Shown here piece by piece: positions 30,005 through 45,989 of a DNA stretch of 64,000 bases. The stretch comes from Balneola sp. (GTDB taxonomy: Bacteria; Bacteroidota; Rhodothermia; Balneolales; Balneolaceae), in NCBI GenBank assembly GCA_017640785.1, contig JAEPPZ010000003.1:14932-78931 (forward strand), given 5' to 3'. Each line of letters begins with the position of its first letter. Position 1 is the first letter of the stretch. The notes below the pieces were generated by a model, which did not search any database, was not told the origin of the DNA, and saw nothing but the letters and a program-made list of their open reading frames with translations. The position numbers were made by a program, and so were the translations under genes.

Positions 30005-30269
30005 CCTTAAGGCCAAATTTATTATCAATTAGCTCAGTAATTGTTTTCATAGCCTCTTTCTCATCACTCCCATCAAATTCAAGTTCAAGTTCTGCACCAT
30101 GTTCAGCGGCTAAGGTCATCACTCCTAAAATGCTTTTGCCGTTAACTTTATATCCATAAAAATGAATAAAAAAATCCGATGAAAATTTGCTCGCAGTTTT
30201 CACCAATGCTGCCGATGGCCTGGCATGTAAACCTGATGAATTTTTAATCGTTATTTTCTTCTTTATCAT
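29997..30269 (-). CDS. ptsH: Phosphocarrier protein HPr
   Basis: Small phosphate carrier between enzyme I and EII proteins. 90 residues. His15 lies in GLHARPS and Ser46 in GKSILGVM, so both the catalytic site and the position used by HPr kinase in other phyla are present. First gene of the minus-strand run ptsH-ptsI-pgi/pmi-birA-tilS-hpt; overlaps ptsI by 8 nt. Confidence 0.94.
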   Translation of the reverse strand: MIKKKITIKNSSGLHARPSAALVKTASKFSSDFFIHFYGYKVNGKSILGVMTLAAEHGAELELEFDGSDEKEAMKTITELIDNKFGLKDE

Positions 30270-30407
30270 TCTTAATGAATTAGCTGTGCGAAAATGGGTA
30301 TAATTTCAATGATTTCCCAAGCATTAAGTCTTTTTTTGAATATAGAATTAACCTTTCACATAATCTTTCTTAAATTCACCTTCATTTAAATTAATAATAA
30401 ATACTAT

Positions 30408-30695
30408 ATGTCTGTATCAGAAAAAGATGTCCATTATATAGCTAACCTTGCAAGGCTTCAGGTAACTGATGAAGAAGCGAAGTCCTATGCTAAGGATATG
30501 AGCAGTATTTTAGATTATATGGAGCTTTTAAATGAAGTAGATACTTCAAATGTAGAGCCCTTAGAACACGTAATTGATTTGGACAGCAGATTCAGAAAAG
30601 ACGAAGCCAAGGAACCTATATCTCACGAAGACGCTCTCAAGAATGCCCCCGATGCCGACTCTGATTATTTCCGCGTACCTAAAGTAATTGAGTAA
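30408..30695 (+). CDS. gatC: Asp/Glu-tRNA amidotransferase subunit C
   Basis: Small structural subunit of GatCAB, which converts Glu-tRNA-Gln (and Asp-tRNA-Asn) to the amide form. 95 residues with the conserved VHYIANLARLQVTDEE start and DYFRVPKVIE end. GatA and GatB are not nearby. It lies 2 nt before the YfhO-like gene, so it is probably co-transcribed with it despite the unrelated role, and it diverges from ptsH. Confidence 0.93.
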   Translation: MSVSEKDVHYIANLARLQVTDEEAKSYAKDMSSILDYMELLNEVDTSNVEPLEHVIDLDSRFRKDEAKEPISHEDALKNAPDADSDYFRVPKVIE

Positions 30696-30697
30696 TT

Positions 30698-33175
30698 ATG
30701 TCCCAAGAAAACAATAGTACTTCTCAAGACGGCTTCTTTTATAATCTTTCGGAAGTTAAACAACACCTTATTGCACTGGCTGTACTTTTTTTAGTGCCAT
30801 TTATATTATTCACGGCAACAACCATTGGGGGAAAAGAATTTCAGCGGCATGATATTACCCAATGGAGAGCCGGTGCAGAATCCGTAATAGAATACAGAGA
30901 AACATTTGGAGAAGATCCGCTCTGGGTTGAAAATATGTATATGGGTATGCCTGCATATGTTGTCTCTGTAATAAAATCTGTACCACATCTGGATGAACTA
31001 TACAGAGTCTTCTATTCTATTTACCCAGCATTTCCATATTGGATTATGCTATCAGGAATGTACTTTTTACTGATATTAATGGGTTTCAGACCTCTTACTG
31101 CTGTTGTTGGAAGTTTACTCTACTCTCTAACTACTTATTTCCCAGTTATTATTGGTGCGGGGCATACTTCAAAATTTGCAGCACTTGCATTTGCACCATG
31201 GGTATTAGCTGGCTATTGGAAACTTACTCACTCAAAAAATAAATTAGCCGGTTTGCTTTTATTCTCTGTGGCAATGGCTTTAGAAGTTCGGGCAGGTCAT
31301 CCTCAGATCACTTACTACTTCATGTACTTAATTGGTTTTCTTTGGATTTCAGATTCTTGGAAACTCATAAAAGAAAAAGAACTTAAACAGTTTGGCATCA
31401 TAACTGCTTTATTATTTGTAGGTGGAATTATTGGGATATTAGGGCATGCAAGAAGTTTTCTAACTCTTCAAGAATACTCTCAATTTAGTATACGAGGTGG
31501 ATCGGCGCTTGATGGGTCTTCCGGTTTGTCAACAAGCTATGCATTTGCTTGGTCTCAAGGAATTAAAGAATCGTTGACTCTGCTTGTGCCTGAGTTTTTT
31601 GGTGGTGCTTCACCCACTTATTTTGGGCCAAAGTCAATAACATCAGGTCCTCATTATCTTGGAGCGATTACTCTTCCATTTCTTTTAATGGCCTTATTTA
31701 ATCAAAGGGGAAGAACCATGCTTGTCTTCTTTGGCACCGGCACTCTGGCTCTTATTTTTTCCTGGGGAGAAAATTTTGCCCTAATTAACGAACTGGCATT
31801 TGATATTATACCATTCTTTGACAAATTCAGAGCTCCGGAAACGTGGCTGGTTCTTACTGCATTTTGCTATTCAATTGTTGCACTGTATGGTCTCTCTTGG
31901 TTTTTCGAATTCCTTAAGAATAAATCCGCAACCCTAAAAGAATTATACTTACCACTTGGGGTTACTGTGTTGATTTTTGCTTTTGTATTGGTTCAGGTAA
32001 AAACCATGGACTATACCAAGCCTGGAGAGATCGAGAATATTGCTAACCAGATCGCTCAACAAAACAATGTCAGTCCGAATAATCCTCAGGTTAGACAAAG
32101 AGCTATCAGTTATGTCGACCAAAATTTTGTACCTGAAAGAGAAGAAGGAGCAAATAAAGACCTGTTCAGATTTGGCTTGTTTTTAGTCTTTTCTGGTGCA
32201 ATAATCTGGTTCGCCTTAAAACAAAAGATATCAGTTACTATTGCATCTATCGGGTTAATAATATTAACCGCTATAGACATGATAAGTGTAGGAAAGCGCT
32301 ATGTACCGGAGCGGGTTATCGTAAATGCAAATGTGAGTCCCGAACGCTATATAGAAACTCAGAAAAGAGATATTGACCAATATATAATGGATAATATTTA
32401 CTCTGATAATGGTGAATATGAATACAGAGTATTTCCATTGATGGACGGAGCCTTCACTAATGCAGTTCCTTCTTACTTTTACCCAACAATTGGAGGTTAT
32501 ACAGGTGCAAAACTTAGTATAGTTGCCGATCTTCAGGCAAATGGCGGACCATTGTTCAAAGGCAATGCGGGTTTAAACCTTGATCTTTTGGGTGCTTTAA
32601 ATATCAAATACATAACCTATCAACAGGGTTTAAGTATTCCTGGTCTTACACCTGTTTTCAATGGCTCTTCAGGTACTGTATATAGAAATGAAAAACTATT
32701 GCCGAAAGCGTTCTTTGTAGACTCATTAGTGACGGTCTCTACCCCAAACGAGGCTTTTGAATTTGTTGAACAACCAAATGTCGATTACTCTTCGATTGCA
32801 GTTGTCGAGACTACAGAAGCACTTTCAACTTCATCAGATAGTACATCGAAAGCAGAGATAACAGAATATACAGGTGCAGAAATGACACTGGCCTTAAATA
32901 GAAGCAAGCCCGGGTTTTTAGTTCTAAGCGAGATCTATTATCCGGCCGGTTGGGTTGCAACTTTAAACGGAAATGAGATCCCTATCTACAAAACTAACTT
33001 TGTACTACGTGGACTAGAAATACCCGCAGGAGAACATACATTAAAATTAGAGTTCAAGCCGAAATCTTACTCAATTGGTGTAACTTTATCTTGGGTTTCT
33101 CTGGGATTACAAACTTTAATCGCTCTATTATTTGGTCTTAATTATATTAAAAGAAAGAAATTAGGTGAGTCGTAA
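30698..33175 (+). CDS. YfhO-like polytopic membrane protein
   Basis: 825-residue membrane protein with about a dozen hydrophobic helices and a C-terminal periplasmic-looking domain (about 520-790). It has the layout of the YfhO/GT-C-like family, in which Gram-positive YfhO is needed for lipoteichoic acid glycosylation; the final helix is at about 795-815 and a basic tail follows. Likely transfers or exports a lipid-linked sugar. It overlaps the GT4 gene by 11 nt, which supports a role in surface glycan synthesis. The exact donor is unknown. Confidence 0.8.
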   Translation: MSQENNSTSQDGFFYNLSEVKQHLIALAVLFLVPFILFTATTIGGKEFQRHDITQWRAGAESVIEYRETFGEDPLWVENMYMGMPAYVVSVIKSVPHLDELYRVFYSIYPAFPYWIMLSGMYFLLILMGFRPLTAVVGSLLYSLTTYFPVIIGAGHTSKFAALAFAPWVLAGYWKLTHSKNKLAGLLLFSVAMALEVRAGHPQITYYFMYLIGFLWISDSWKLIKEKELKQFGIITALLFVGGIIGILGHARSFLTLQEYSQFSIRGGSALDGSSGLSTSYAFAWSQGIKESLTLLVPEFFGGASPTYFGPKSITSGPHYLGAITLPFLLMALFNQRGRTMLVFFGTGTLALIFSWGENFALINELAFDIIPFFDKFRAPETWLVLTAFCYSIVALYGLSWFFEFLKNKSATLKELYLPLGVTVLIFAFVLVQVKTMDYTKPGEIENIANQIAQQNNVSPNNPQVRQRAISYVDQNFVPEREEGANKDLFRFGLFLVFSGAIIWFALKQKISVTIASIGLIILTAIDMISVGKRYVPERVIVNANVSPERYIETQKRDIDQYIMDNIYSDNGEYEYRVFPLMDGAFTNAVPSYFYPTIGGYTGAKLSIVADLQANGGPLFKGNAGLNLDLLGALNIKYITYQQGLSIPGLTPVFNGSSGTVYRNEKLLPKAFFVDSLVTVSTPNEAFEFVEQPNVDYSSIAVVETTEALSTSSDSTSKAEITEYTGAEMTLALNRSKPGFLVLSEIYYPAGWVATLNGNEIPIYKTNFVLRGLEIPAGEHTLKLEFKPKSYSIGVTLSWVSLGLQTLIALLFGLNYIKRKKLGES

Positions 33176-34472
33176 AAAGATACTCATCATATCTTATTAC
33201 TGGTATCCCTTTGCAGGAGTAGGAGCTTACCGTATTTCCCGATTTGTAAAATACCTATTAAAAAATAATTGGGAAGTAGTGATACTTACGACTAAGAAAT
33301 CAGCTTCAGGAATAAACCAACAAGCTGATCACCCAATTTTTGAAAAATGTAAGGTATACCGATCAAATATTATAGAGCCCGTAGGGCTTCTTAGTTCTGG
33401 CGACAAGAAAAAAGAAAAAACGAGTAATCCATCAATATTTTACAGGAAAAACACTAACTGGAAATCAAAACTCGCTGTTTGGACCAGGCTCAATCTTATG
33501 GTTCCTGATGCCAAATTTACCTGGAAATGGTTCGCAGTACCATTAGGGAAAAAGATTATTAAGAAGGAAAATCCCGGCATTATTTTATCAACATCCCCGC
33601 CTCCTACTACAAACTTGATTGCGAAAAAATTAGCTGGATGGAGCAAACTTCCCTGGGTAGCAGACTTTCGTGACCCTTGGACGAACATATATTATTATGA
33701 TGATAACCCTCAGAGTAAAAGAGCAAAAAAGAAAAATCAGAAGCTTGAAGCAGCAGTTCTAGGTAAAGCAGATCACATTACTGTAGTTAATAATGGTTTT
33801 TTTCCTGAAAATAACATCGATGGTAAAGTTACGCGAATCACAAATGGCTTTGATCCTGATGATATTGTAGAAAATACAGAGCAAATAGTAACGAACTCAA
33901 AATTTACGATTAGATACTTCGGTAGTATGAAGATCAATCAGAAACCAGACTCTCTTATATCTGCTCTTAAAAATATTGAAGACTTGAATCCAAAAATAGC
34001 TGGTAATTTAGCGTTCGAATTTTATGGCAGCATTGATCCTGATATTCAAGCAGAATTAAAGAAAAGCTCTTCCAAAATTGAGTTTAGCTTTACCGATTAT
34101 ATTTCACATAAAGAGATGATGAGATTGACTCTTCAATCAGATTTATTATTGCTCACAATAGGTAAATCCAGGAACAGCAAATTTGCCTTATCTACCAAAG
34201 TATTTGAGTACATGATCTCAGGAAAGCCGGTACTTGGTATTGGACCTGTTGATGGTGCTGCATCAGAACTTGTCCAAAAAACTAATATTGGGGAGTTTTT
34301 TGAACACACCGATAGTGCCGGCGTTTTTAAATTTATTCTGAAGGTATTTGAAGCTTCCAAGAAAGAACAAACTCTTTTTGAAAGAGATCAAGATGAAGTA
34401 GATAAATATAGCTTTAAAAACTTGTCTTCCCAGCTTATTGAAATATTAGAACATCAAATCGAAAGGAAGTAA
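33165..34472 (+). CDS. Family 4-type glycosyltransferase
   Basis: 435-residue GT-B glycosyltransferase. The N-terminal domain shows SYYWYPFAGVGAYRISRFVK (about 10-29) and WVADFRDPW (about 163-171); the C-terminal half has the sugar-nucleotide region with KVFEYMISGKPVLGIG (about 345-360). Start GTG at 33165 inside the preceding gene gives an 11-nt overlap. It ends 11 nt before the convergent acyl-ligase gene. Likely cytoplasmic and acting on a lipid-linked glycan; donor and acceptor are not decided by sequence. Confidence 0.85.
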   Translation: MSRKKILIISYYWYPFAGVGAYRISRFVKYLLKNNWEVVILTTKKSASGINQQADHPIFEKCKVYRSNIIEPVGLLSSGDKKKEKTSNPSIFYRKNTNWKSKLAVWTRLNLMVPDAKFTWKWFAVPLGKKIIKKENPGIILSTSPPPTTNLIAKKLAGWSKLPWVADFRDPWTNIYYYDDNPQSKRAKKKNQKLEAAVLGKADHITVVNNGFFPENNIDGKVTRITNGFDPDDIVENTEQIVTNSKFTIRYFGSMKINQKPDSLISALKNIEDLNPKIAGNLAFEFYGSIDPDIQAELKKSSSKIEFSFTDYISHKEMMRLTLQSDLLLLTIGKSRNSKFALSTKVFEYMISGKPVLGIGPVDGAASELVQKTNIGEFFEHTDSAGVFKFILKVFEASKKEQTLFERDQDEVDKYSFKNLSSQLIEILEHQIERK

Positions 34473-34483
34473 CCTGTTGCCTC

Positions 34484-35938
34484 TTATTTCAACTTGTCTC
34501 TTTGTTTTTTCCCCGATGAAGTTCTAGGTATCCTAGAAATAAAAGTAATATCTCCCGGAATCTTATAAGGCTCTAGTTTTCCTCTTAAAAAAGTCACTAG
34601 CTCTTTTACATCAAATTCTTCTTTATTTACGGGTACAATAAATGCTTTGATCGACTCTCCTGTAATCGATCCGCTTTCTTTTACCGATATACAGGCTGAA
34701 TCTTTAACAAGATCATGCTGATCAATTATCATTTCTATTTCACCCGGAAATACCTTTTTCCCACCAATATTAATTACATCATCCTTCCTGCCACTTAAGA
34801 ATATGAATCCTTCTTCATCTGCATAACCTAGATCCCCGGTTTTGAACCAACCATTAATAAATGAGTCATTGGTAAGTTCAGGCATCTTCCAATAACCCGG
34901 AGTTTGAACCCCACCTTTTACAACAATCTCTCCTACTTCTTTTTCTGGTAGCATAACCCCACTTTCATCCATGATACTTACAAAAGTATTTGGACTCGGT
35001 TTTCCCAGTGCATTCAATTTTGATCTTGAATCATGAAACTCAATAAAAATATTTGCGGCCACTTCTGTTAAACCATAGTGCATACAAATCCTTGTATTTG
35101 GGAGCACTCCAGCCAGATCCTTTTTCTCAGAGTTTTCCATTGGTGAACTACCAAACTCTATATACTTTAATTTACTAAAGTGCTTAACGTAAGTATCTTT
35201 CATAAGCTTTTTCACGATTGAGAAACCAGCCGGAACCATACATATCCCATTTGCACCATAGTTTTCAATCGCATCAAAAAAAAGATTGGGACGAACAAAA
35301 CCGTCCACCAAAACTACTGTAGCTCCCAATAACATATTCGTCCTTAATCTCCGTAGACCAAATGCGTGGTGTAATGGTAAAGGTATGATCTCAGTATCAG
35401 AAGAATTGTTTCCGATAAATATGTTAGAGTTCTCTGCTCCCGCTAAAATATTTTCGTGTGTTAATTTAACTCCTTTAGAGTTACCGGTTGTTCCCGTAGT
35501 AAAAAGTATATCCGCTATCGTGTCTTTTTCAGGAAACTTAAAATTCTTAAGCGGTTGACCATCTAATAAATTTTTTCCGAATGGAAATTGTTTAAATGGA
35601 TGTTCAATTTCTTTTGGGTGAATCACTATATGTGGTTCCGTTTTCGAAATAAGATCAGCCAATCTGTTATCTGGAAGTTTAACGTCAACCGGAACCGCGA
35701 TAGCATTTACGAGATGTATGGCTAAGTATGTATACAGAAATAAGGGGCTTTTTTCTCCATAGAAAACGACTCTATCACCTTTAGAAACACCCTCTTTATC
35801 TAAAAAACCTGCAACTTTTAATATATTAACTGAGACTTCTGCATAGGAGACCTTTTCATCCCCCCAAATAATTGCGGTTTTATCAGGGTTATTCGCTGAA
35901 TTTTTAAAAAACCCTTCAACTATTGAGTTAACTTCCAT
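34484..35938 (-). CDS. AMP-forming acyl ligase (acyl-ACP synthetase-like)
   Basis: 484-residue ANL-superfamily enzyme that activates a carboxylate as acyl-AMP. The phosphate-binding loop FTTGTTGNSKG is at about 146-156, YGLTEVAAN near 293, GWFKTGDLGY near 370, and the catalytic lysine lies in the C-terminal PRTSSGKKQR. It ends the minus-strand cluster and sits 8 nt behind an acyl carrier protein gene, so the acyl group is most likely loaded onto that ACP. The identity of the acid is unknown; the enzyme is shorter than typical long-chain fatty acyl-CoA ligases. Confidence 0.85.
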   Translation of the reverse strand: MEVNSIVEGFFKNSANNPDKTAIIWGDEKVSYAEVSVNILKVAGFLDKEGVSKGDRVVFYGEKSPLFLYTYLAIHLVNAIAVPVDVKLPDNRLADLISKTEPHIVIHPKEIEHPFKQFPFGKNLLDGQPLKNFKFPEKDTIADILFTTGTTGNSKGVKLTHENILAGAENSNIFIGNNSSDTEIIPLPLHHAFGLRRLRTNMLLGATVVLVDGFVRPNLFFDAIENYGANGICMVPAGFSIVKKLMKDTYVKHFSKLKYIEFGSSPMENSEKKDLAGVLPNTRICMHYGLTEVAANIFIEFHDSRSKLNALGKPSPNTFVSIMDESGVMLPEKEVGEIVVKGGVQTPGYWKMPELTNDSFINGWFKTGDLGYADEEGFIFLSGRKDDVINIGGKKVFPGEIEMIIDQHDLVKDSACISVKESGSITGESIKAFIVPVNKEEFDVKELVTFLRGKLEPYKIPGDITFISRIPRTSSGKKQRDKLK

Positions 35939-35946
35939 TTCTAGAT

Positions 35947-36168
35947 TTAACTCCTTTTTTGTACGATACTTTTTAGTGCTGCTATTGAATTTATTTGACC
36001 AATTTCTTCAGGTGAAATTTCAATATCGTATTCATCTTCTATAGCTGTAATAATGTTTACATGGCCTAAAGAGTCCCAAGCTTCTAACTGTCCGGGGCCA
36101 ATCTCATCTGATAGCTCTGTTGTTTCGTCTAAGTAAAGAACTTCTCTGATAATGTCTTCTACTTTCAT
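35947..36168 (-). CDS. Acyl carrier protein (dedicated)
   Basis: 73-residue carrier with the phosphopantetheine site Ser33 in EAWDSLGHVNII. It is acidic and ends KSIVQKRS. Fatty-acid synthesis ACP usually sits with fabF/fabD; this one is between an acyl ligase (8 nt) and an LpxD-like acyltransferase (17 nt), so it is likely a private carrier for sugar N-acylation. Confidence 0.9.
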   Translation of the reverse strand: MKVEDIIREVLYLDETTELSDEIGPGQLEAWDSLGHVNIITAIEDEYDIEISPEEIGQINSIAALKSIVQKRS

Positions 36169-36185
36169 AAAATTGTCAATCTAAA

Positions 36186-37091
36186 TTACCTTTTTGGTAA
36201 AACTTTTCTACCTAATGCTTGAAAATTATCCTCTATATCCTGAGTTACGGTAGCTCCAACTGAAATAAAAACATTATTTCCTATTTTCAACTTGTTGAGC
36301 AATGTAGCATTAGGGCTAATCCAGACATTATTACCAATTGTTGTAGAACCTGCTATGGCAACGCAACCAGTTATCAAACAATCTTTACCAATTTGAACAT
36401 TATGCGAAATATGAACCGATTTGGATATCTTAGTACCGGCACCAATTACAGTGTTATCTAATGTTCCTCTGTCGATAGTGGTGGCAGCTCCAATTTCTAC
36501 GTGGTCATGGATTTCTAGACCTCCAATATGAGGTAGTCTCTCCCATTTTCCATCATCAGTTTTTGCCATTCCAAAACCCTCTGCTCCTAAAATCGCACCT
36601 GCCTCAATAATCACTTCATCTCCGATAGTAGTATTATCGTATACATAGTTATTACCTTGCAGAACCGTGTTTTTTCCAATCCTGCATTTTCCTATGTATG
36701 TATTCGGGCCAATGTATGCTGAAGATGCTATTTCAGCTTCAGGATGAACAGTTGCTGATTTATGAATACCTGATTCTGTTTTAGCTGGAAAAATTCTTCG
36801 CATCAATCTGGTAAACGCCAGCTTAGGATTTTCAACTATTATAAATCCTTTTTTTTCAAGTAAAGATTCGTTCAGCTGCACTGTACTATCACAAATAATT
36901 AACTTTGATGCAGTTTGGCTTATAAGTTCCAGCTTGTTTTCTTTATCAGGACTGCACCAAACAATTGAATGTTCTTCTGCATCAATAATACTCTTGAAAT
37001 TATCTACGTAATCAAGATTACTATTTCCTTTGAATTCGAAATCAACTGATAGTGCTTTTTTAATATTTTCCAGAGTAAGTTTTTCCATCAA
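36186..37091 (-). CDS. LpxD-like N-acyltransferase (left-handed beta-helix)
   Basis: 301-residue acyltransferase. An N-terminal nucleotide-sugar-binding-like domain (about 1-100) is followed by hexapeptide repeats. LpxD-type motifs GAEGFGMAK and ISHNVQIGKDCLITG are present; the His in ISHN corresponds to the catalytic His of LpxD. It is shorter than lipid A LpxD (about 340) and lies outside any lpx operon, next to its own ACP and acyl ligase. It probably acylates an amino sugar-nucleotide with an ACP-bound acid. A second lipid A enzyme cannot be excluded. Confidence 0.8.
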   Translation of the reverse strand: MMEKLTLENIKKALSVDFEFKGNSNLDYVDNFKSIIDAEEHSIVWCSPDKENKLELISQTASKLIICDSTVQLNESLLEKKGFIIVENPKLAFTRLMRRIFPAKTESGIHKSATVHPEAEIASSAYIGPNTYIGKCRIGKNTVLQGNNYVYDNTTIGDEVIIEAGAILGAEGFGMAKTDDGKWERLPHIGGLEIHDHVEIGAATTIDRGTLDNTVIGAGTKISKSVHISHNVQIGKDCLITGCVAIAGSTTIGNNVWISPNATLLNKLKIGNNVFISVGATVTQDIEDNFQALGRKVLPKR

Positions 37092-37099
37092 AATATATT

Positions 37100-37750
37100 T
37101 CAGACCTTCAACCTAACAACTTCAAATGCTTCAGCATAAGGTTCTCCAATTTGAACTCCTCTTACTCTTGCTAAGCCTTCCATAAATTCTTTGGTAAAGT
37201 ATGGTCGCTGTTTTATAAACTGAGACTCATACACCTGCATCATTTCCCATTTTTTATCTAAGTGTGGCTGGCTAAGTTTAACAAATGCTTGTGTTGAAAA
37301 GCTTACATGATTCCAAGGTAATTCATAACCCCAAATACTAGCATGTTTAAAAGCACGTAACCCTTCATTGTAGACAACTTCATGATCTTGATGAAGATCG
37401 CTTCCAGAAGGCACCAAAACCAGATCAGGTAATATTGAATTTTTCAATTTCACCATCTCTTCTAAAACTTCTTGTCTATGATATGAAAGCATACGAACCT
37501 GGTAGTCATAAACATGCAGGTTTGATGCAGGGAGTCCCAAAATCCGCATGGAAGCTAAAAATTCTTTTTTTAGCATATCTGGATCAGATCCTTCAGGCAA
37601 AGAGGCTCTGGCAGTAGAAAAAGCCGCTACATAAATATCGATTCCTTCTTCAAAAAAACGAGCCATAGTACCACCACACCCTAGCTCTGCATCATCAGTA
37701 TGTGGTGCTAAAACTAGTACTCTATTAATTCCTTTCAAACTCATAGCCAT
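37100..37750 (-). CDS. PIG-L/LmbE family deacetylase
   Basis: 216-residue zinc-dependent N-deacetylase. The hallmark metal site appears as APHTDDAELGCGG (about 15-27; usually PHPDDE), with the second site in SDLHQDHEVV near 120. Family members remove an acetyl group from GlcNAc-type substrates. It lies between the LpxD-like and WecD-like genes (gaps 8 and 19 nt), which suggests a deacetylate-then-reacylate step on the glycan's amino sugar. Substrate is inference. Confidence 0.85.
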   Translation of the reverse strand: MAMSLKGINRVLVLAPHTDDAELGCGGTMARFFEEGIDIYVAAFSTARASLPEGSDPDMLKKEFLASMRILGLPASNLHVYDYQVRMLSYHRQEVLEEMVKLKNSILPDLVLVPSGSDLHQDHEVVYNEGLRAFKHASIWGYELPWNHVSFSTQAFVKLSQPHLDKKWEMMQVYESQFIKQRPYFTKEFMEGLARVRGVQIGEPYAEAFEVVRLKV

Positions 37751-37769
37751 TTATTTATTTCTGAAATTC

Positions 37770-38450
37770 TTATACCCTTAAATAGAAGATATGATCTATT
37801 TTAGACAAAATACGATTTGCTCTGATATGACTTTTAATAGTGTTGAAGTTACTCAATTGCGTACTATTAATTACAGTAATTGTTTTCCCAATTGCGTTAA
37901 AACTCGCCTGTTGCATTTTGGCGTGTAGTCTTTTTCCTCTTGCTCTAGGTAATACCCCGGTCATTACACCTTTGTAGATATTCTCATCTACTTTTCTGAT
38001 CATATAATAAGCCGATATTCCTTCTTCATCTTTCGACACTACAGTTACTGTGCTTTGTTTAGAAAAATTATTTTTAATGGACGCTTCATAATATGACCTG
38101 CATTGTTCTCCGGTGAAAAACTCTTTGTTCTTGAATCTGGTATACAAGTCATTATTATCTAAAAAGCATTTTTGGGTAATATCAATTATCTGATCCAAAT
38201 GCTCCTCTTTCGCAAGCTCTATCTCTGAAGTATCCTTAGATATATCCGGAGACACTTGGCTTTCAAATTCTATTGCTGATTCTACAAGCTTGAATCCATT
38301 ACTTTCAGCTTTGTTTATAGAATCCGGATTTTGTGCACTAACCCTCCATTCAATCAATGCATTTTCAACACCTGGATTTAATTCATCTATAGATGTTATC
38401 TCAAACCAGTCTACTCCATAGAAATCTGTCATCCAGTCGTTTTTTTTCAT
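37770..38450 (-). CDS. WecD-like GNAT acetyltransferase
   Basis: 226-residue acetyltransferase of the GNAT superfamily. The N-terminal half (FEITSIDEL; RVSAQNPDSINKAESNGFKL) resembles WecD, which acetylates the 4-amino group of dTDP-Fuc4N; the acetyl-CoA loop is GVLPRARGKRLHAKM (about 164-178). Its start overlaps the hexapeptide gene stop as ATGA. Two genes further lies a WecE-like aminotransferase that would make its substrate. Assignment to Fuc4N is inference from this context. Confidence 0.7.
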   Translation of the reverse strand: MKKNDWMTDFYGVDWFEITSIDELNPGVENALIEWRVSAQNPDSINKAESNGFKLVESAIEFESQVSPDISKDTSEIELAKEEHLDQIIDITQKCFLDNNDLYTRFKNKEFFTGEQCRSYYEASIKNNFSKQSTVTVVSKDEEGISAYYMIRKVDENIYKGVMTGVLPRARGKRLHAKMQQASFNAIGKTITVINSTQLSNFNTIKSHIRANRILSKIDHIFYLRV

Positions 38451-38932
38451 CCCTTCTTTTTAAAGAATTTTGCCGGATTACCATACCATATTTCATCATC
38501 CGGAACATGAGCACGAACCTGAGAACAAGCTCCGATTATTGTGTTCTTTCCAATTGAAAACCCCGGCATTAAAGTTACATTGGCTCCGATTAAAGCTCCA
38601 TCACCTACACCGGCAACTACTTTTTTATCTCCTTTGGTAAGATCCGGAGTATCAGTTAAAACAAAACTATACTTGATTGTGACATTTTTGCCAATAGTTG
38701 CATTAGCTGAGATCGTACATCTGCTCCCAAAAGAAGTATTATCACCAATCACTACATTTTCTCTGATCTCGCAGTAGGCTGTGAATTTACAATTTGCACC
38801 AATTTTGGCACCTTTTCTAACAATACAAAATGGTCCGATTTTGGTATTATCTCCAATTTCTGCCCCTTCTTCTATATACGCTAAAGGATGGATATCTGTA
38901 TTTTTTCCGATTTTTGCTTTACTGGATAACAT
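38447..38932 (-). CDS. Hexapeptide-repeat acetyltransferase
   Basis: 161-residue left-handed beta-helix protein with hexapeptide repeats over nearly its whole length (IGDNTKIGPFCIVRKGAKIG), followed by the late PGFSIGKNTIIGACSQV and WYGNPAKFFKK. Typical of sugar O- or N-acetyltransferases in O-antigen clusters. It lies 11 nt after the WecE-like gene and overlaps the WecD-like gene by 4 nt. With WecD-like, LpxD-like and this enzyme, the cluster has three candidate acyltransferases. Confidence 0.85.
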   Translation of the reverse strand: MLSSKAKIGKNTDIHPLAYIEEGAEIGDNTKIGPFCIVRKGAKIGANCKFTAYCEIRENVVIGDNTSFGSRCTISANATIGKNVTIKYSFVLTDTPDLTKGDKKVVAGVGDGALIGANVTLMPGFSIGKNTIIGACSQVRAHVPDDEIWYGNPAKFFKKKG

Positions 38933-38943
38933 TTAAATAAGTA

Positions 38944-40074
38944 TTAATTATTTGTATAAAAATTAATCACTGACTCTATGATATGATCAACCGCTTCGTT
39001 TTCTAAACTATAGAACATCGGTAATCTAATCAATTGAGAAGAAAGTGTTTCTGTAATAGGAAGATTCAGCTCCCCAAAATTTTTCTTATAGTATTCACTT
39101 ATATGCAAAGGCACATAATGAAAAACAGAATAAACACCTGCATTTCTTAAATACTTTATCAAACTTGTTCGCTCTTCAAGGTTTTTAGTAATAACATAAA
39201 ACATATGTGCATTACCCGTACAATTCTCCGGAACGTTTGGCAATGCAATACTTCCTGATTTTTCAAGGTCTTTTAATCCTTTTCTATATCTTCCGTAAAT
39301 CTCATTTCTTCTATTTTGAATTACATCGAGATTCTCAAACTGTGCCTTTAAAACTGCTGCATTAATTTCTGAAGGAAGAAAACTCGATCCTACATCAACC
39401 CAGGTATATTTATCAATTTCTCCTCTAAAGAACTTACTCCTGTTTGTACCCTTCTCTCTTATTATTTCAGCTCGATCAATAAATCTTTCGTTGTTAATAA
39501 GGATTGCACCGCCTTCGCCCATACTGTAATTCTTTGTCTCATGAAAGCTATAGCAACCAATATCTCCTAATGTCCCTAAATATGAATTTCTATATTTTGC
39601 ATTTACTCCCTGTGCGGCATCTTCGATTACAAACAGATCATGCTTTTTTGCAATTCGCGATATTTCATCCATCTCACATGATACCCCAGCATAATGAACC
39701 GGAAATATAGCTTTGGTTCTGCCGGTTATTGCACCCTCAATCAAACTCTCATCTATATTCAAGGTGTCTTTTCTGATATCTACAAAAACAGGAACAGCTC
39801 CTCTTAGTATAATTGCATTGGCGGTAGACACAAAAGTATATGAAGGTAAAATAACTTCATCCCCTTCCTTCAGGTCTATCAACAGCATCGCCATTTCCAG
39901 AGCATGGGTACCAGAAGTGGTCAATAATGCTTTCTTTGTTTCAAATTTTGATTCTATAAAATCATTACACCATTTCGTAAATTTCCCATCACCGGATACT
40001 TTATTAGCAGCATACGCCTCTTTTATATATTCAAGTTCGTTGCCAAACAAATTTTGCTTGTTAAAAGGAATCAT
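38944..40074 (-). CDS. wecE: dTDP-4-amino-4,6-dideoxygalactose transaminase (WecE-like)
   Basis: 376-residue PLP aminotransferase of the DegT/DnrJ/EryC1/StrS family. SGTHALEMAM and PSYTFVSTANAI are conserved, and the PLP lysine lies in FHETKNYSMGEGGA (about 178-191). The overall sequence is closest to WecE/RffA, which makes dTDP-Fuc4N from the 4-keto sugar. Its start overlaps the wecF-like gene stop by 4 nt. The upstream enzymes (RmlA/RmlB) are not in the window. Confidence 0.85.
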   Translation of the reverse strand: MIPFNKQNLFGNELEYIKEAYAANKVSGDGKFTKWCNDFIESKFETKKALLTTSGTHALEMAMLLIDLKEGDEVILPSYTFVSTANAIILRGAVPVFVDIRKDTLNIDESLIEGAITGRTKAIFPVHYAGVSCEMDEISRIAKKHDLFVIEDAAQGVNAKYRNSYLGTLGDIGCYSFHETKNYSMGEGGAILINNERFIDRAEIIREKGTNRSKFFRGEIDKYTWVDVGSSFLPSEINAAVLKAQFENLDVIQNRRNEIYGRYRKGLKDLEKSGSIALPNVPENCTGNAHMFYVITKNLEERTSLIKYLRNAGVYSVFHYVPLHISEYYKKNFGELNLPITETLSSQLIRLPMFYSLENEAVDHIIESVINFYTNN

Positions 40075-41120
40075 GCTGTAAAGACCTGCTTTAAATCAGA
40101 TTGAAGTTTTTCTTTTGAAAAATAAGCCTTAACTATTTCCGAATTTTTATTTGCGATGTCTTCTGTTACTCGCTCAAGTTCCAGCTCAGATGTACAATAT
40201 ACTTTTATATTCAGTTGTTCGAAATAATCCCAAGTTGTCACTTCTTTTCTTATAAATACTTTCTTTCCCAAACCAATAAGGTTTATGATATTTCCCATTG
40301 CCTGCTGTCTTTGGTGATTGAATAAAGCTATATCAAGGCTTGAGAGCATTTTTTGATATTCATCCAAAGGTAAAAAATTTGTAAGCGGCATAAAGTTACT
40401 TCCAAACAATAATTCGCCTTCTTTTATCACCTTTTCTGCATGGTCATCACTACCATATGAAAGTGGGCAAACTATATTATAATTCTGTAAGCCTTTCTTA
40501 GCTAATTCTTCTTTTAAAGCCCTAAACATTTCAAGATGACAATTGCCTGGGTCAGAAGAATTACCAACTAATATATTAAGACTATCTTGATTTATACCTT
40601 CTGTAATAGTAGAAGTAAAAATATTACTAGGGTATTTAAAACTTTTAATCCTCTCTCCTCTGGGGTTGAAAAACTTATTTATATTTTCGTACTCACCATC
40701 AATTTCTACTACAATAAAGCCAAGATTTCTGACTACAAACTTCTTAAAAAAAGAAAGTAGTTTTAACTTTAAGCTATTCCTTAAGACCTCCTTATAAACA
40801 TCATCCCCCCAAGTAAACCAATAGCTTTTCTTTAAATTCCAGGGCATCAGAAAAAGAAGTAAAAATGTCATAGCCTCATTCAAGCCATGCAAAACAATAC
40901 GATCAGCTTTATTTATATCCCTTATTAAAGATATTAAGGAAGCAAATCCGATTTTAGTTAACGAATAATTTAGTTTTTGTACCTTTGAGTTCTCAGGAAG
41001 TCTTTTCTTCTGATCTTTTTGAAATATCACATATTTCATCTCCAGTTCAGAGAAAGATTTTTCTACGAAACCAATAAACTGGTGAATAAAAACGACATTT
41101 GGTGAAATATGGAGAATCAA
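40071..41120 (-). CDS. wecF: WecF-like Fuc4NAc transferase (GT56)
   Basis: 349-residue glycosyltransferase of the GT56/WecF type, which in enterobacteria adds Fuc4NAc to lipid III of enterobacterial common antigen. YWFTWGDDVYK (about 111-121) and the late NHQRQQAMGNIINLIGLGKK are family features. It is first in the minus-strand cluster and overlaps wecE by 4 nt. The WecD/E/F-like trio outside Enterobacteria is the main reason to assign this cluster to a Fuc4N-containing glycan. Confidence 0.8.
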   Translation of the reverse strand: MILHISPNVVFIHQFIGFVEKSFSELEMKYVIFQKDQKKRLPENSKVQKLNYSLTKIGFASLISLIRDINKADRIVLHGLNEAMTFLLLFLMPWNLKKSYWFTWGDDVYKEVLRNSLKLKLLSFFKKFVVRNLGFIVVEIDGEYENINKFFNPRGERIKSFKYPSNIFTSTITEGINQDSLNILVGNSSDPGNCHLEMFRALKEELAKKGLQNYNIVCPLSYGSDDHAEKVIKEGELLFGSNFMPLTNFLPLDEYQKMLSSLDIALFNHQRQQAMGNIINLIGLGKKVFIRKEVTTWDYFEQLNIKVYCTSELELERVTEDIANKNSEIVKAYFSKEKLQSDLKQVFTA

Positions 41121-41250
41121 AAACTGATATATTTTCAGTGAATTTTTTTGATGATATTAAATAAGCATCATAAAAACATGTAATACTTTAAGAAGAATCA
41201 ATCCGGCATTAAATACACTTAAATTTTTTGCTCAATTACTAAGGCATTTT

Positions 41251-42726
41251 TTGGGAATAATTATAAATCAAAGCATACGAAACGCGATAATATCCTATTC
41301 CGGTATTATAATCGGGTTCATTTCTACCATAATCCTTTTTCCGTTCATATTGGGTGCAGAACGTTTCGGTCTTACAAGAACACTTATTGCTATTATGACC
41401 ATTTGTGTTCAATTGGTAAACCTTGGAATTCCAAATTCCATAATTAAATTTTTTCCATTTCTGGCTGAAAAAACTAAAAACCCTCAAGGACTTTTTTGGC
41501 TTTTTATTATCCCTCCTTCTATTGGATTGTTAGTTTTTGTTCTAATTTTTTTAGGATTCAAAGACACCGTATTGGGGTTTTATTCTGATAGCTCTTTACT
41601 TACTGATTACTACTATTTTATAATCCCTTTGGTATTTTCTGTTGCGGCATTTGGACTTTTAAATTCGTTTATTAAAGCTTCATTTAATACTGTTTTTGCT
41701 TCTTTCCTTCAAGAGATTTTGCTCAGGCTAATTGTTATTGCGGACCTGATTCTATTCTATTTCGGTCTTGTTAGCTTTGATCAATTCATAATCATTTTTG
41801 TTTTAAACTACACCCTACAATACATTATCTTGTTTGCTTACGCTCTTCAGAAAGGGTATCTAAACTTTAGCCCATCAAAAAAGCCTTTCGATAAAACCGC
41901 CCGAAAAAACATCTCACAATATAGTTTTTTTGCTTTTTTTAGCGGATTTACAACCATCTTGGTTGGGAATATTGACCTGATTATGGTTGACATCTTTGAA
42001 GGTCTGGAAAAAACCGGTGTTTATGCTGTAGCTCTCTATGTAGGTGCTGTAATTTCAATTCCAAGAAGATCGATTTCTAAAATATCTTTCCCAGTAATTT
42101 CAAGATCTTTTAAAGAAAACGATCTCAATAATATTGACGATGTTTATAAAAAGTCTTCTTTAAACCAGCTTTTGATAGGGCTTCTTATCTACATTGGGGT
42201 CATTGCAAACACTGATAATTTATATGCACTTCTTCCTGAAGTTTTTGCCGAAGGGAGCATCGTTATTATTATCATAGGACTTGCAAATCTTTTTGATGTC
42301 GCAACAGGAGCAAATGGACAAATAATTATTTCTTCCAAATACTATAAATTTGATTTCATTTCTTCCTCTATACTTATGATCGTTTCCATAATACTGAATG
42401 CCATTTTGATTCCTGTTTACGGATTAACAGGAGCAGCAATTGCTACTGCTTCTTCTATTGGAATTTATAACATAATTAAAATGATCTATGTTTGGGCAAA
42501 ATTTGGCATGCAACCATTTGCTTGGAAGACACTTGGTGTAATTGCTTTGGGGATTTCTGTACTTTATATATCGACATTTTTACCCCAACTTTCTAATATA
42601 TATTTCGATGTAGTCATCAGATCATTACTGATGGCTGTTCTTTATATGGGGTCAGTTTGGGTTTTTAATCTTTCTGAAGAAATAAATAGCGTTATAAAAG
42701 GGGTCGTTAAAAGAAAAAAAAACTGA
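41251..42726 (+). CDS. Wzx-type oligosaccharide flippase
   Basis: 491-residue membrane protein of the MOP/polysaccharide-biosynthesis family with about 12-14 helices; a basic tail ends VVKRKKN. Such proteins flip lipid-linked repeat units to the periplasm. The start is TTG at 41251: the frame is closed by TAA at 41209 and has no ATG or GTG between. It diverges from wecF across 130 bp and is the transporter expected for the glycan built by the cluster. Confidence 0.85.
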   Translation: MGIIINQSIRNAIISYSGIIIGFISTIILFPFILGAERFGLTRTLIAIMTICVQLVNLGIPNSIIKFFPFLAEKTKNPQGLFWLFIIPPSIGLLVFVLIFLGFKDTVLGFYSDSSLLTDYYYFIIPLVFSVAAFGLLNSFIKASFNTVFASFLQEILLRLIVIADLILFYFGLVSFDQFIIIFVLNYTLQYIILFAYALQKGYLNFSPSKKPFDKTARKNISQYSFFAFFSGFTTILVGNIDLIMVDIFEGLEKTGVYAVALYVGAVISIPRRSISKISFPVISRSFKENDLNNIDDVYKKSSLNQLLIGLLIYIGVIANTDNLYALLPEVFAEGSIVIIIIGLANLFDVATGANGQIIISSKYYKFDFISSSILMIVSIILNAILIPVYGLTGAAIATASSIGIYNIIKMIYVWAKFGMQPFAWKTLGVIALGISVLYISTFLPQLSNIYFDVVIRSLLMAVLYMGSVWVFNLSEEINSVIKGVVKRKKN

Positions 42727-42800
42727 TGTAAGATTTTCATTAGTAAAGAAACTCTCCATATCTAGTCTTATCTTAAATCGAATTTTAAGAGAACTAATTA

Positions 42801-44060
42801 ATGGCCAAAGCAAAATACACAACACACCTCGGAATGGTAGATATACTCCCGGATGAATCCCCAAAATGGAGAGCGCTGGAAAATATCATTCACGAAGAAG
42901 CAGCAAAGTTTAATTTTGAAGAGATCAGAACTCCAATTATGGAGCAAACTGAACTAATTAAACGAGGCATCGGCCAACTTACCGATATTGTAACGAAAGA
43001 GATCTTTGCATTTACCAAAGGGGAAAGTAATTATGTACTTCGTCCTGAGTTGACAGCTCCTGTTGTAAGAGCATTTGTTCAACATCACCTGGACCAAAGA
43101 GGAGGTTCTCAAAAACTGTATTACATTGGGCCGATGTTCCGTGCTGAGCGACCTCAAAAAGGAAGACAGCGACAATTCCATCAATTTGGAGTTGAGGTTA
43201 TAGGTACTGATAATCCGGTTGCAGATGTAGAATGTATTGCTTTTATGATTCGCATTTATCAAAGAATTGGAATCAAAAATTTCGAATTGAAATTAAACTC
43301 AGTCGGTGATCCTGAAAGCAGAGAAAATTATAAGTCTGTTTTAAAAGAATACCTCAAACCTCATTTTGATAAGCTGAGTGAGCTCTCCCAAAAGAGATTT
43401 GAAAAAAATCCTATGAGAATTCTGGATTCAAAAGAACCCGAAGATCAGGAATTCATCAAGAACGCCCCTGTAATAAGTGATCATTTAAATGAAGAATCGA
43501 AAGCCCACTTTGAACAGGTTTGCGAAATGCTCTCTTCACTAAATATCGAATACACTCTTGATCCTCTTTTAGTTCGGGGTATGGATTATTACACAAGAAC
43601 CGCTTTTGAATTAACAAGCTCTGACCTTGGCTCTCAGGATGCGCTGGCAGGTGGTGGTCGATATGATTTGCTTGTAGAAGAAATTGGAGGCAAACCTACT
43701 CCTGCCGTTGGATTTGCAGCCGGAATGGAACGTCTTTTTATTGCATGCGAAGAACTTGGGATTTCTTTGGCAGATGAAAAAAAAGTTGATGTATTTATTG
43801 TTAGCCTTGGGGAAGATGCTCGAAAATGGGCATTAAAAACTTTGCCTTTATTCAGGGAAAATGGGGTTTCAGCTACAATGGATTATCTTGACCGCTCGAT
43901 GAGAGCTCAAATGAAAGATGCGAATAGAGAAAATGCTTCATTTACATTGATAGTTGGAGACAATGAACTGAAGGAGCAGAAATTCACTCTCAGAAACATG
44001 AAAGAAAGTGAAGAAGCTCAGTTAACGATCGATGAAATTTTATCCAAACTTTCTCAATAA
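42801..44060 (+). CDS. hisS: Histidyl-tRNA synthetase
   Basis: Class II synthetase that charges tRNA-His. 419 residues. Motif 2 appears as MFRAERPQKGRQRQFHQFGVE; VRGMDYYTRTAFEL and GGGRYDLLVEEIGG are HisRS-specific; the anticodon-binding domain follows (about 325-419). Monocistronic or with the downstream antiporter, 75 nt away. Confidence 0.96.
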   Translation: MAKAKYTTHLGMVDILPDESPKWRALENIIHEEAAKFNFEEIRTPIMEQTELIKRGIGQLTDIVTKEIFAFTKGESNYVLRPELTAPVVRAFVQHHLDQRGGSQKLYYIGPMFRAERPQKGRQRQFHQFGVEVIGTDNPVADVECIAFMIRIYQRIGIKNFELKLNSVGDPESRENYKSVLKEYLKPHFDKLSELSQKRFEKNPMRILDSKEPEDQEFIKNAPVISDHLNEESKAHFEQVCEMLSSLNIEYTLDPLLVRGMDYYTRTAFELTSSDLGSQDALAGGGRYDLLVEEIGGKPTPAVGFAAGMERLFIACEELGISLADEKKVDVFIVSLGEDARKWALKTLPLFRENGVSATMDYLDRSMRAQMKDANRENASFTLIVGDNELKEQKFTLRNMKESEEAQLTIDEILSKLSQ

Positions 44061-44135
44061 AAAACAAACGCCATACTGGTAAAAAGAGTTATTCCGACTT
44101 ATACTCCAAATGGATAATTAAACTAACTTTAATTT

Positions 44136-45989
44136 ATGTCTGAATATATAGCTGTTGGTCTTGCAAGTGTATTGGCATTGGGGATATCTGCTCAATGGCT
44201 TGCGTGGAGGACAAAGTTACCTGCAATTTTACTTTTATTAGGTTTCGGAATTATTGCCGGTCCAGTCACCGGCTTACTAGATCCCGATAAACTTATGGGT
44301 GATTTATTAAGCCCTTTTGTTTCTATCTCTGTGGCTATTATTCTTTTTGAAGGCGGACTCAGCTTGAAAATGTCTGAATTCCGAAAAATTGGCGGTACGG
44401 TAATCAAGCTCATTACTATTGGAGTTGTTGTTACCTGGACATTAGCTTCGTTGGCAGCGCTTTATATTTTGGATCTTGGGTTAGAGTTATCCGTTCTGTT
44501 TGGAGCAATACTTATTGTAACCGGACCAACCGTTATTGTGCCTTTGCTCAGGCAGGTACGACCTACGGAAACCGCCGGCTCTGTAGTAAAGTGGGAAGGA
44601 ATTGTAAACGACCCGATCGGAGCTATGATGGCCGTTCTTGTTTTTGAAGTCATCATTTCAGGTGGCTTTTCAAATATGGATGGTCACGCTGGTTTAGTAA
44701 TTATACAAACTCTGGCGTATGGAACGTTCTTTGGCGCAATTGGTGCAGGAATTATGTACTTCACTCTCAAGAAACACTGGATTCCTGATTACCTGCAAAA
44801 TCCCGTAACCCTGATGGTTGTTGTTGGAGTGTTTGTAATTTCAAATCATCTGCAGCATGAATCGGGTCTTTTAACCGTAACTGTGATGGGTATCATACTT
44901 GCTAATCAGAAATCTGCCCGTATTAAACACATCATAGAATTTAAGGAGAACCTACAGGTACTTTTGATTTCCGCTCTATTTATTCTTCTGGCATCAAGAC
45001 TAGAAGTATCAGCACTTGAATTCTTTAATTGGGGTGCTGCTTTATTTATACTAGCTCTTATTTTGGTAATACGTCCTGCTGCGATTTTCTTTTCAACACT
45101 TGGCTCTAACCTTAATTGGAGAGAAAAAGCCTTTGTAGCGTGGATGGCTCCCAGAGGTATTGTAGCTGCTGCAATATCTGCGGTATTTGCTCTCCGTTTA
45201 GAACAGGAAGGTTATGCTGAAGCCGAACAACTAGTTCCATACACCTTTATTGTAATTATTGCTACTGTAACTATTTATGGATTATCTGCAAGCCCGGTTG
45301 CAAAGCTCTTAGGTGTTGCCAAAGCTGCTCCTAAAGGTGTGGTTATTGTTGGTGCCCACAACTGGGCCAGAATGATCGCTCATGCTATCAAAGAGTTTGG
45401 ATTTAAAGTATTGGTTGCCGATTCTAACTGGGAAAATATAACTAAAGCCAGAAAGTCCGGTCTGGATACCTATTATGGAAATATCCTTTCAGAATATGCT
45501 ATGGACGAAATTGATCTGGATGGCATTGGAAAAACTTTGGCCTTGACTCCTAATGATGAAGTAAATTCATTAACGGCCATTCAATTTGCAGAGATCTTCG
45601 GTAATTCTTCGGTATTCCAGTTACCACCGCTTTCAACAGCAAGCAAAAAAGAGTTGGAATCAAATGATTCCCTTGGTGGACGAACACTATTCTCAAAAGA
45701 GATGAATTTTGATAGGATCTCAGAATTTTTAAGATCCGGGGCAGGTATTCGAAAAACCCCTATTACATCTGAATTTTCTTTTGAAAATTATGAAAAAAAA
45801 TATGGTGATAAAGCATTACCTTTATTTGTGGTCTCAAGTTCAAATACAATAGAACCTTTTTCACTTGATAATCCTCCTTCACCTCAGGCAGGAGATACAA
45901 TCATAGGTCTTGTCTCAGAAGATGCTGATTCAAAGAATCCATCAGATATTGAAACGGATCAAAAACTAGATCCAAATTTGCCGCACTGA
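44136..45989 (+). CDS. Cation:proton antiporter with TrkA-N-like domain
   Basis: 617 residues. The first about 400 residues are a CPA1-type antiporter with about 12 helices; GGLSLKMSEFRKIG and VTGPTVIVPLLRQVRPTE include the conserved transport core, and EGIVNDPIGAMMAVL holds the ND pair expected at the ion site. A cytoplasmic NAD-binding TrkA-N-like domain follows (VVIVGAHNWARMIAHAI, about 405-421). It overlaps the lysA start by one base. Na+ or K+ for H+ exchange is likely; the ion is not decided. Confidence 0.88.
   Translation: MSEYIAVGLASVLALGISAQWLAWRTKLPAILLLLGFGIIAGPVTGLLDPDKLMGDLLSPFVSISVAIILFEGGLSLKMSEFRKIGGTVIKLITIGVVVTWTLASLAALYILDLGLELSVLFGAILIVTGPTVIVPLLRQVRPTETAGSVVKWEGIVNDPIGAMMAVLVFEVIISGGFSNMDGHAGLVIIQTLAYGTFFGAIGAGIMYFTLKKHWIPDYLQNPVTLMVVVGVFVISNHLQHESGLLTVTVMGIILANQKSARIKHIIEFKENLQVLLISALFILLASRLEVSALEFFNWGAALFILALILVIRPAAIFFSTLGSNLNWREKAFVAWMAPRGIVAAAISAVFALRLEQEGYAEAEQLVPYTFIVIIATVTIYGLSASPVAKLLGVAKAAPKGVVIVGAHNWARMIAHAIKEFGFKVLVADSNWENITKARKSGLDTYYGNILSEYAMDEIDLDGIGKTLALTPNDEVNSLTAIQFAEIFGNSSVFQLPPLSTASKKELESNDSLGGRTLFSKEMNFDRISEFLRSGAGIRKTPITSEFSFENYEKKYGDKALPLFVVSSSNTIEPFSLDNPPSPQAGDTIIGLVSEDADSKNPSDIETDQKLDPNLPH

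Follow-up and report, generated by a model that had tools for sequence, protein, structure and literature searches.

Which sugar is acylated by a bacterial glycan operon that joins relatives of enterobacterial common antigen (ECA) enzymes to a deacetylase and to a relative of the lipid A enzyme LpxD? The operon lies in a stretch of 64,000 nucleotides, hereafter the window, taken from contig JAEPPZ010000003.1 of a marine Balneola-type bacterium (Balneolaceae; assembly GCA_017640785.1, 3.39 Mb, 99.7% complete). From 41120 down to 34484, on the minus strand, eight tightly packed genes code for a WecF-like transferase of glycosyltransferase family 56 (GT56), a WecE-like transaminase, a hexapeptide acyltransferase of 161 aa (LbH161), a WecD-like GNAT, a PIG-L protein, an LpxD-like protein, an acyl carrier protein (ACP) and an acyl ligase. 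The WecF/WecE and LbH161/GNAT pairs overlap by 4 nt and the remaining gaps measure 8-19 nt, in agreement with the spacing of 20 nt or less, with overlaps, reported in the initial annotation. All of the genes named there are real and correctly placed, but that list of seven had omitted LbH161 between WecE and the WecD-like gene. The same gene order is found in a second genus of the family with proteins 33-77% identical, so the arrangement is not due to chance. We give a probability of about one half to the reading that these genes form a surface-glycan operon of two parts, located at a fixed exchange site, in which one half serves 4-acetamido-4,6-dideoxygalactose (Fuc4NAc) and the other deacetylates and re-acylates a hexosamine.

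That the two halves are separable is seen from the distribution of their genes. Of 92 Balneolaceae genomes searched, 16 encode a PIG-L orthologue (69-100% identity). The genes for the LpxD-like protein, the ACP and the ligase occur together in all 13 of the 13 loci that have this block, always directly after PIG-L, and the block is present in four genera (g1, g4, g5 and g149). Seven loci, here type A, combine it with the Wec half (G000, G026, G346, G344, G341, G347 and G343; G344 has no 161-aa gene). Four loci of type B (G096, G073, G293 and G345) have the block without WecE, WecD or a close WecF, and their sugar genes are sulfotransferases, GT2 and GT4 glycosyltransferases and other DegT aminotransferases; type C loci (G302, G258 and G308) have PIG-L without the other three block genes. 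In G348 and G349 the block is present and contig ends cut the loci upstream. In these loci the Wec genes are always accompanied by the block, and the block is also seen where they are missing; WecE-WecF pairs that lack the block are known from outside the family (L034, L035).

Nearly all of these loci lie at one site, with YfhO-GT4 on one side and flippase-HisS on the other. At the DNA level the window aligns with G096 over 28689 to 37761 (84%) without interruption, and the homology is lost 11 nt upstream of PIG-L. For G347 and G345, the latter without Wec genes, the shared stretch covers 10.4 kb at 87% and breaks off 19 nt upstream of PIG-L. The position of the break in these two close pairs means that exchange was confined to the Wec half, the block being kept together with the flank. 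The acylation module is accordingly not private to 4-amino-4,6-dideoxygalactose (Fuc4N), as the initial annotation had pictured it, and the break is the main result against that picture; four loci in all retain the block without Wec orthologues. The initial annotation had also raised the possibility that the ACP/ligase pair occurs with lipid or polyketide genes and without sugar genes; no such case was found, all loci seen in the family being glycan loci.

The region that comprises the two flanks and the genes between them (window 28689-46000; L033, L043, L100-L115) serves as a glycan-exchange site at which contents of at least three kinds can replace one another. In the window its left flank (30698..34472, plus strand) encodes a YfhO membrane protein and a GT4-type glycosyltransferase, which adjoin the variable genes in almost every family locus that was read, and its right flank (41251..44060, plus strand) encodes a Wzx-type flippase and HisS (Pfam Polysacc_synt and tRNA-synt_His), the flippase having the same position in sister loci. 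Sulfotransferase-rich versions are among the contents of the site. Additionally, L109, L113 and L114, which have no ACP/ligase block, carry a UDP-GlcNAc 2-epimerase gene close to PIG-L, and in L109 a WbqC-family gene lies on the other side.

The exchangeable half encodes candidate proteins for Fuc4NAc addition. The WecE-like Fuc4N transaminase (38944..40074, minus strand as for all eight genes; 376 aa) scored 575 bits against a cut-off of 375 for NF008687 and 550.5 against 434.85 for TIGR02379, and its nearest solved structures are 4PIW and 6BLG. The WecF-like Fuc4NAc transferase (40071..41120, 349 aa) is above the cut-off of Pfam Glyco_transf_56 (88 bits), and among NCBIfam models it scores best with NF002756, at 346 bits where 457 are required. 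The WecD-like GNAT (37770..38450, 226 aa) has no Pfam match and is far under the PRK10975 cut-off (49.7 against 219 bits), and its AlphaFold model, with a predicted local distance difference test score (pLDDT) of 85, has E. coli WecD as top PDB match (2FS5, E 1.5e-14, template modelling (TM) score 0.79/0.80), which makes it a candidate dTDP-Fuc4N N-acetyltransferase. LbH161 (38447..38932; Hexapep, 125 bits) is a left-handed beta-helix acyltransferase whose closest solved structures are the WxcM-like 4MZU, the N-acetyltransferases 7S43/7S3U and QdtC. A complete ECA pathway was ruled out. The sole PF00953 protein of the genome is MraY, so WecA is absent and glycan initiation does not proceed through it, while two copies of WecB, one WecG/TagA-superfamily protein and two PF02397 sugar transferases are encoded on other contigs. 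The earlier statements that WecA, WecB, WecC and WecG lie outside the window and that this is not a full ECA locus were thus right as far as tested, WecC not having been searched for.

Fuc4N leaves WecE as a free 4-amine. As a WecD-fold acetyltransferase is also present, Fuc4N needs no deacetylase, and the presence of PIG-L consequently speaks for a different sugar, an N-acetylhexosamine being the likeliest. PIG-L-family enzymes mostly act on N-acetylglucosamine (GlcNAc) groups and LpxD takes a UDP-glucosamine as substrate, and together with the free amine of Fuc4N this favours the hexosamine model. The idea of a dedicated deacetylation and ACP-based re-acylation unit therefore survives as the best reading, and Fuc4N as its target is not supported. 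The view closest to that earlier idea is that the ACP, ligase and LpxD-like protein attach an unusual acid to the 4-amino group of dTDP-Fuc4N, or in sister loci to that of dTDP-4-amino-4,6-dideoxyglucose (dTDP-Qui4N), like the viosamine island of Pseudomonas syringae, where an aminotransferase, an ACP and a hexapeptide transferase act on a dTDP-4-amino sugar (PMC3927599). WecE is found in 7 loci and DesI-like aminotransferases in three of the four others, which speaks for this view; nevertheless the unit persists when WecE, WecD and WecF are exchanged, and also in L106, the only type B locus with no aminotransferase in the locus. A free 4-amine with a WecD-fold enzyme of its own and no need of a deacetylase, and an LpxD-like protein that keeps the uridine-domain fold, likewise speak against it, and we consider it unlikely, though not far-fetched.

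The block itself begins with the putative N-deacetylase of the PIG-L/LmbE family (37100..37750, 216 aa; Pfam PIG-L, 66.4 bits), which has the metal motifs HTDD and HQDH and whose nearest solved structures are TT1542, the LmbE-related 2IXD, diacetylchitobiose deacetylases and BshB. An identity as the bacillithiol deacetylase BshB was rejected (TIGR04001, 67.4 bits against a cut-off of 182.5). The ACP (35947..36168, 73 aa; above the Pfam PP-binding cut-off) carries its phosphopantetheine serine in a DSL motif that is invariant among the ACPs of the block. Only two PP-binding proteins are encoded in the genome, this one, which sits in the glycan operon as a dedicated carrier, and AcpP in the fab cluster. 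The ligase of the ANL superfamily (34484..35938, 484 aa; Pfam AMP-binding, 216.9 bits, and AMP-binding_C) is the proposed loader of the ACP. Its motifs TTGTTG, HHAFGL, YGLTE, GWFKTGDLG and GRKDD are kept among eight orthologues, and its best family models are acyl-CoA ligases, above all long-chain ones, with every score below its cut-off. Amino-acid adenylation was discarded (AA-adenyl-dom, 181 bits under a cut-off of 317; pocket motif of the acyl-CoA-ligase type). The G344 ligase (L104:4219-5667) has a divergent C-terminal lysine motif, SIPKTSWDVLG, possibly from a frameshift or assembly error.

The LpxD-like protein (36186..37091, 301 aa) is the only strong LpxD match in the host genome. It reaches 223.4 bits with TIGR01853, whose cut-off is 242.5, and orthologues reach 219 and 206, against 346-359 for three full-length LpxDs of Bacteroidota. 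In a tree of 36 rows the twelve LpxD-like proteins of the block are united in a single clade (100/100) whose sister is G009, a relative from Bacteroidota, and they stand apart from 17 lipid A LpxDs of Bacteroidota; the grouping with lipid A LpxD that would have spoken against the earlier proposal was thus not observed. Only 71-72 residues follow the catalytic His, against 93-113 in LpxD, and the helical ACP-recognition domain is therefore missing, most of that domain being formed in LpxD by the C-terminal helices (PMC6820557). The catalytic His (H239 in E. coli) and the oxyanion Gly (G257) are kept in 12 of 12 block proteins. In all twelve the D232 position, which in E. coli reads the acyl beta-hydroxyl, is Ser, against Asp in all 24 other rows, the position of H276, which contacts pyrophosphate, is Lys, and that of F41, required to bind the acyl acceptor, is Trp (review PMC6286764). 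The loss of the tail for ACP recognition and of the Asp that reads the beta-hydroxyl argues against a hydroxy fatty acid, and the acyl group is unlikely to be that of a 3-hydroxy fatty acid. For the LpxD-like protein AlphaFold gave a monomer model (pLDDT 74, predicted TM score 0.53), which cannot speak to the trimer active site; at E < 0.001 its only matches are LpxD structures, which it resembles across its length, though the TM scores are low (0.36-0.42). A match to the N-domain of MurE is also seen for its own N-domain. The retained uridine-domain fold, the aromatic at the F41 position, the catalytic His and the oxyanion Gly lend support to a hexosamine substrate, and suggest an N-acyltransferase whose acceptor is still a sugar bound to a nucleotide and whose carrier is a different one.

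These features also bear on whether the protein could be an ordinary lipid A LpxD next to an ECA-like cluster. It does exceed the cut-off of the LpxD subfamily model NF002060 (237 against 207 bits), but the sub-threshold TIGR01853 score, the separate clade, the altered residues, the lack of WecA and the lack of LpxC and LpxB in the family make this extremely improbable, and on tree, cut-off, tail, residues and genome context we rejected that identity. Genomes of family f26 (L093, L095, L097 and L081) encode, in addition to an ordinary LpxD, a second LpxD paralogue of about 309 aa, which forms its own 100/100 clade.

LpxC was found in 0 of 58 Balneolaceae genomes and LpxB in 0 of 39, the host included in both, while controls, among them a Bacteroides, were positive. 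LpxD is mostly absent in the family, whereas most other genomes searched in the phylum have an LpxD match. Balneolaceae thus seem, from these searches for LpxC, LpxB and LpxD, to be diderms without lipid A, and the open literature searched held nothing relevant on lipid A genes in Balneola or Salinibacter. Against this background the block could be a substitute glycolipid route, in which PIG-L, the LpxD-like protein and the fatty-acid-type ligase make an N-acylated UDP-glucosamine that becomes the anchor of a glycan in the membrane. The family-wide lack of LpxC and LpxB, a reaction logic equal to that of LpxC-LpxD and the likeness of the ligase to long-chain acyl-CoA ligases speak for such a route. 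However, only 13 of 92 family genomes have the unit, which makes it accessory, no O-acylating LpxA-like or lipid-assembly gene occurs in the operon, and the lost tail and Asp disfavour a hydroxy fatty acid, which leaves the route rather improbable.

Further evidence on mechanism comes from outside the family. A scan of 84,980 species genomes gave 17 loci. In three non-family loci among these, L142, L143 and L144, and also in G009 (L117), a gene for a protein of 238-260 aa lies directly upstream of the LpxD-like gene; the four proteins are homologous (23-35%), have RHD/RQD and LH motifs in common and appear CE4-like, two of them with a weak Polysacc_deac_1 match. L142, L143 and G009 are Bacteroidota and L144 comes from a metagenome-assembled genome (MAG) of Euryarchaeota. 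Furthermore, G171 pairs a PIG-L protein (47%) with an LpxD-like protein (33%), while no directly adjacent deacetylase was seen in the neighbourhoods of L118, L145, L146 and L147. That a single family of acyltransferases is found next to deacetylases of two unrelated families supports a mechanism in which an acetyl group is taken off and the amine is then acylated again, and it is the best evidence here for that mechanism. It also bears on the suggestion that PIG-L and the LpxD-like protein are merely co-located and act on different sugars, the latter acylating a free amine made elsewhere. PIG-L orthologues without the other block genes (G302, G258 and G308) fit this suggestion, but the constant position of the block directly beside PIG-L (13 of 13) and the recurrence of the pairing with a second deacetylase family make it quite doubtful.

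In L144 (L144:7129-8825) the LpxD-like protein has most of the uridine domain and its gene lies directly after that of the CE4-like deacetylase, downstream of an AMP-ligase. To our knowledge archaea have no lipid A, and the archaeal assignment is from a single MAG contig that could be a binning error. A broader speculation, which we hold to be a long shot, is that a family without lipid A has kept, at the site where its surface glycans are exchanged, a rebuilt LpxC/LpxD-type pair (PIG-L and the tail-less LpxD, served by an ACP and a ligase of their own) to make an N-acylated glucosamine as membrane anchor or signature sugar of its glycans, and that this logic of deacetylase and LpxD-like protein has spread to other lineages, the archaeon included.

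Returning to the two-part operon, from the gene set we infer the substrate sugar, the acid and the order of steps as follows. In the exchangeable half WecE would make dTDP-Fuc4N, the WecD-fold GNAT would N-acetylate it and the GT56 enzyme would transfer Fuc4NAc into the same glycan that the other half modifies, LbH161 probably adding another acetyl-type group. In the flank-bound half the ligase would load an acid onto the dedicated ACP, PIG-L would remove the N-acetyl group from an N-acetylhexosamine of that glycan, with GlcNAc, bound to UDP or to a lipid, as the likeliest candidate, and the amine so exposed would receive the acyl group of the ACP through the LpxD-like enzyme, the neighbouring flippase then exporting the glycan. 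Several observations weigh against this scheme. The substrate of PIG-L is deduced by analogy with its relatives, the operon contains no gene for making the acid, and N44 and Y47 of the uridine/pyrophosphate site of LpxD are not kept. In E. coli Y47 matters little (PMC6286764). Moreover, the published case of ACP-based N-acylation targets a dTDP-4-amino sugar (PMC3927599), and such an acceptor may be used here too, since three of the four type B loci encode a DegT aminotransferase, for which DesI is the best model, although the scores are far under its cut-off (221-267 against 650 bits). Elsewhere in the window (6815-11761, plus strand) a secreted repeat protein of 1648 aa with GLUG motifs and a Por_Secre_tail domain is encoded.

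If the proposal is true, it defines a class of glycan N-acylation units marked by a deacetylase and a tail-less LpxD, and automatic annotations that name such proteins lipid A enzymes would be corrected. It would represent lipid A-type chemistry apart from lipid A, carried out by a tail-less LpxD-like protein together with a deacetylase, a carrier and a ligase dedicated to it, in a family of diderms in which neither LpxC nor LpxB was found. Precedents exist for the parts as well as for the chemistry. The open literature searched gave no description of the combination, of its stability at an exchange site or of its presence in a family lacking LpxC and LpxB, nor anything relevant on PIG-L combined with LpxD; since these searches gave nothing relevant, the lack of a prior description of the gene combination is weakly supported.

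Among known systems, the teicoplanin deacetylase and N-acyltransferase and BtrI/BtrJ of butirosin deacetylate and then acylate an amino sugar, or acylate it by means of an ACP and a ligase, but they belong to antibiotic pathways and their acyltransferases have other folds. The tetronate genes VC0248-VC0252 of Vibrio cholerae O1 include ACP-like, ligase-like and hexapeptide members, and we know of no PIG-L or LpxD-like protein among them. As proposed for Balneola, that dedicated set N-acylates an amino sugar of a surface polysaccharide (PMC3441752), in its case perosamine. The P. syringae viosamine island (vioA, vioB, vioS, vioR and acp) similarly unites a dedicated ACP, a hexapeptide acyltransferase and an aminotransferase in one glycan locus and yields an N-acyl amino sugar, a product that in Balneola is proposed from the genes; there, however, a synthase and a reductase build the acid on the ACP before it is put on a dTDP-4-amino sugar (PMC3927599), whereas in Balneola the acid would be loaded ready-made by a ligase, and the locus has a deacetylase and an acyltransferase of the LpxD-like type. 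The ECA locus (wecA-G) shares WecE, WecD-fold and WecF-family proteins with the operon, but the Balneola genome has no WecA, holds WecB and a WecG-superfamily protein elsewhere and adds the acylation unit. Lastly, the second half of the operon resembles a part of the Raetz pathway that was borrowed and then altered. In that pathway an N-acetylhexosamine is likewise deacetylated, and an enzyme of the LpxD fold, whose catalytic His is the same, then N-acylates it with acyl-ACP as donor; we propose by analogy that the unit repeats the chemistry of LpxC and LpxD with another deacetylase, carrier and acid, using PIG-L instead of LpxC, a dedicated ACP and ligase, and an LpxD-like enzyme without the ACP-recognition helices and the beta-hydroxyl-reading Asp, outside any LpxC/LpxB context.

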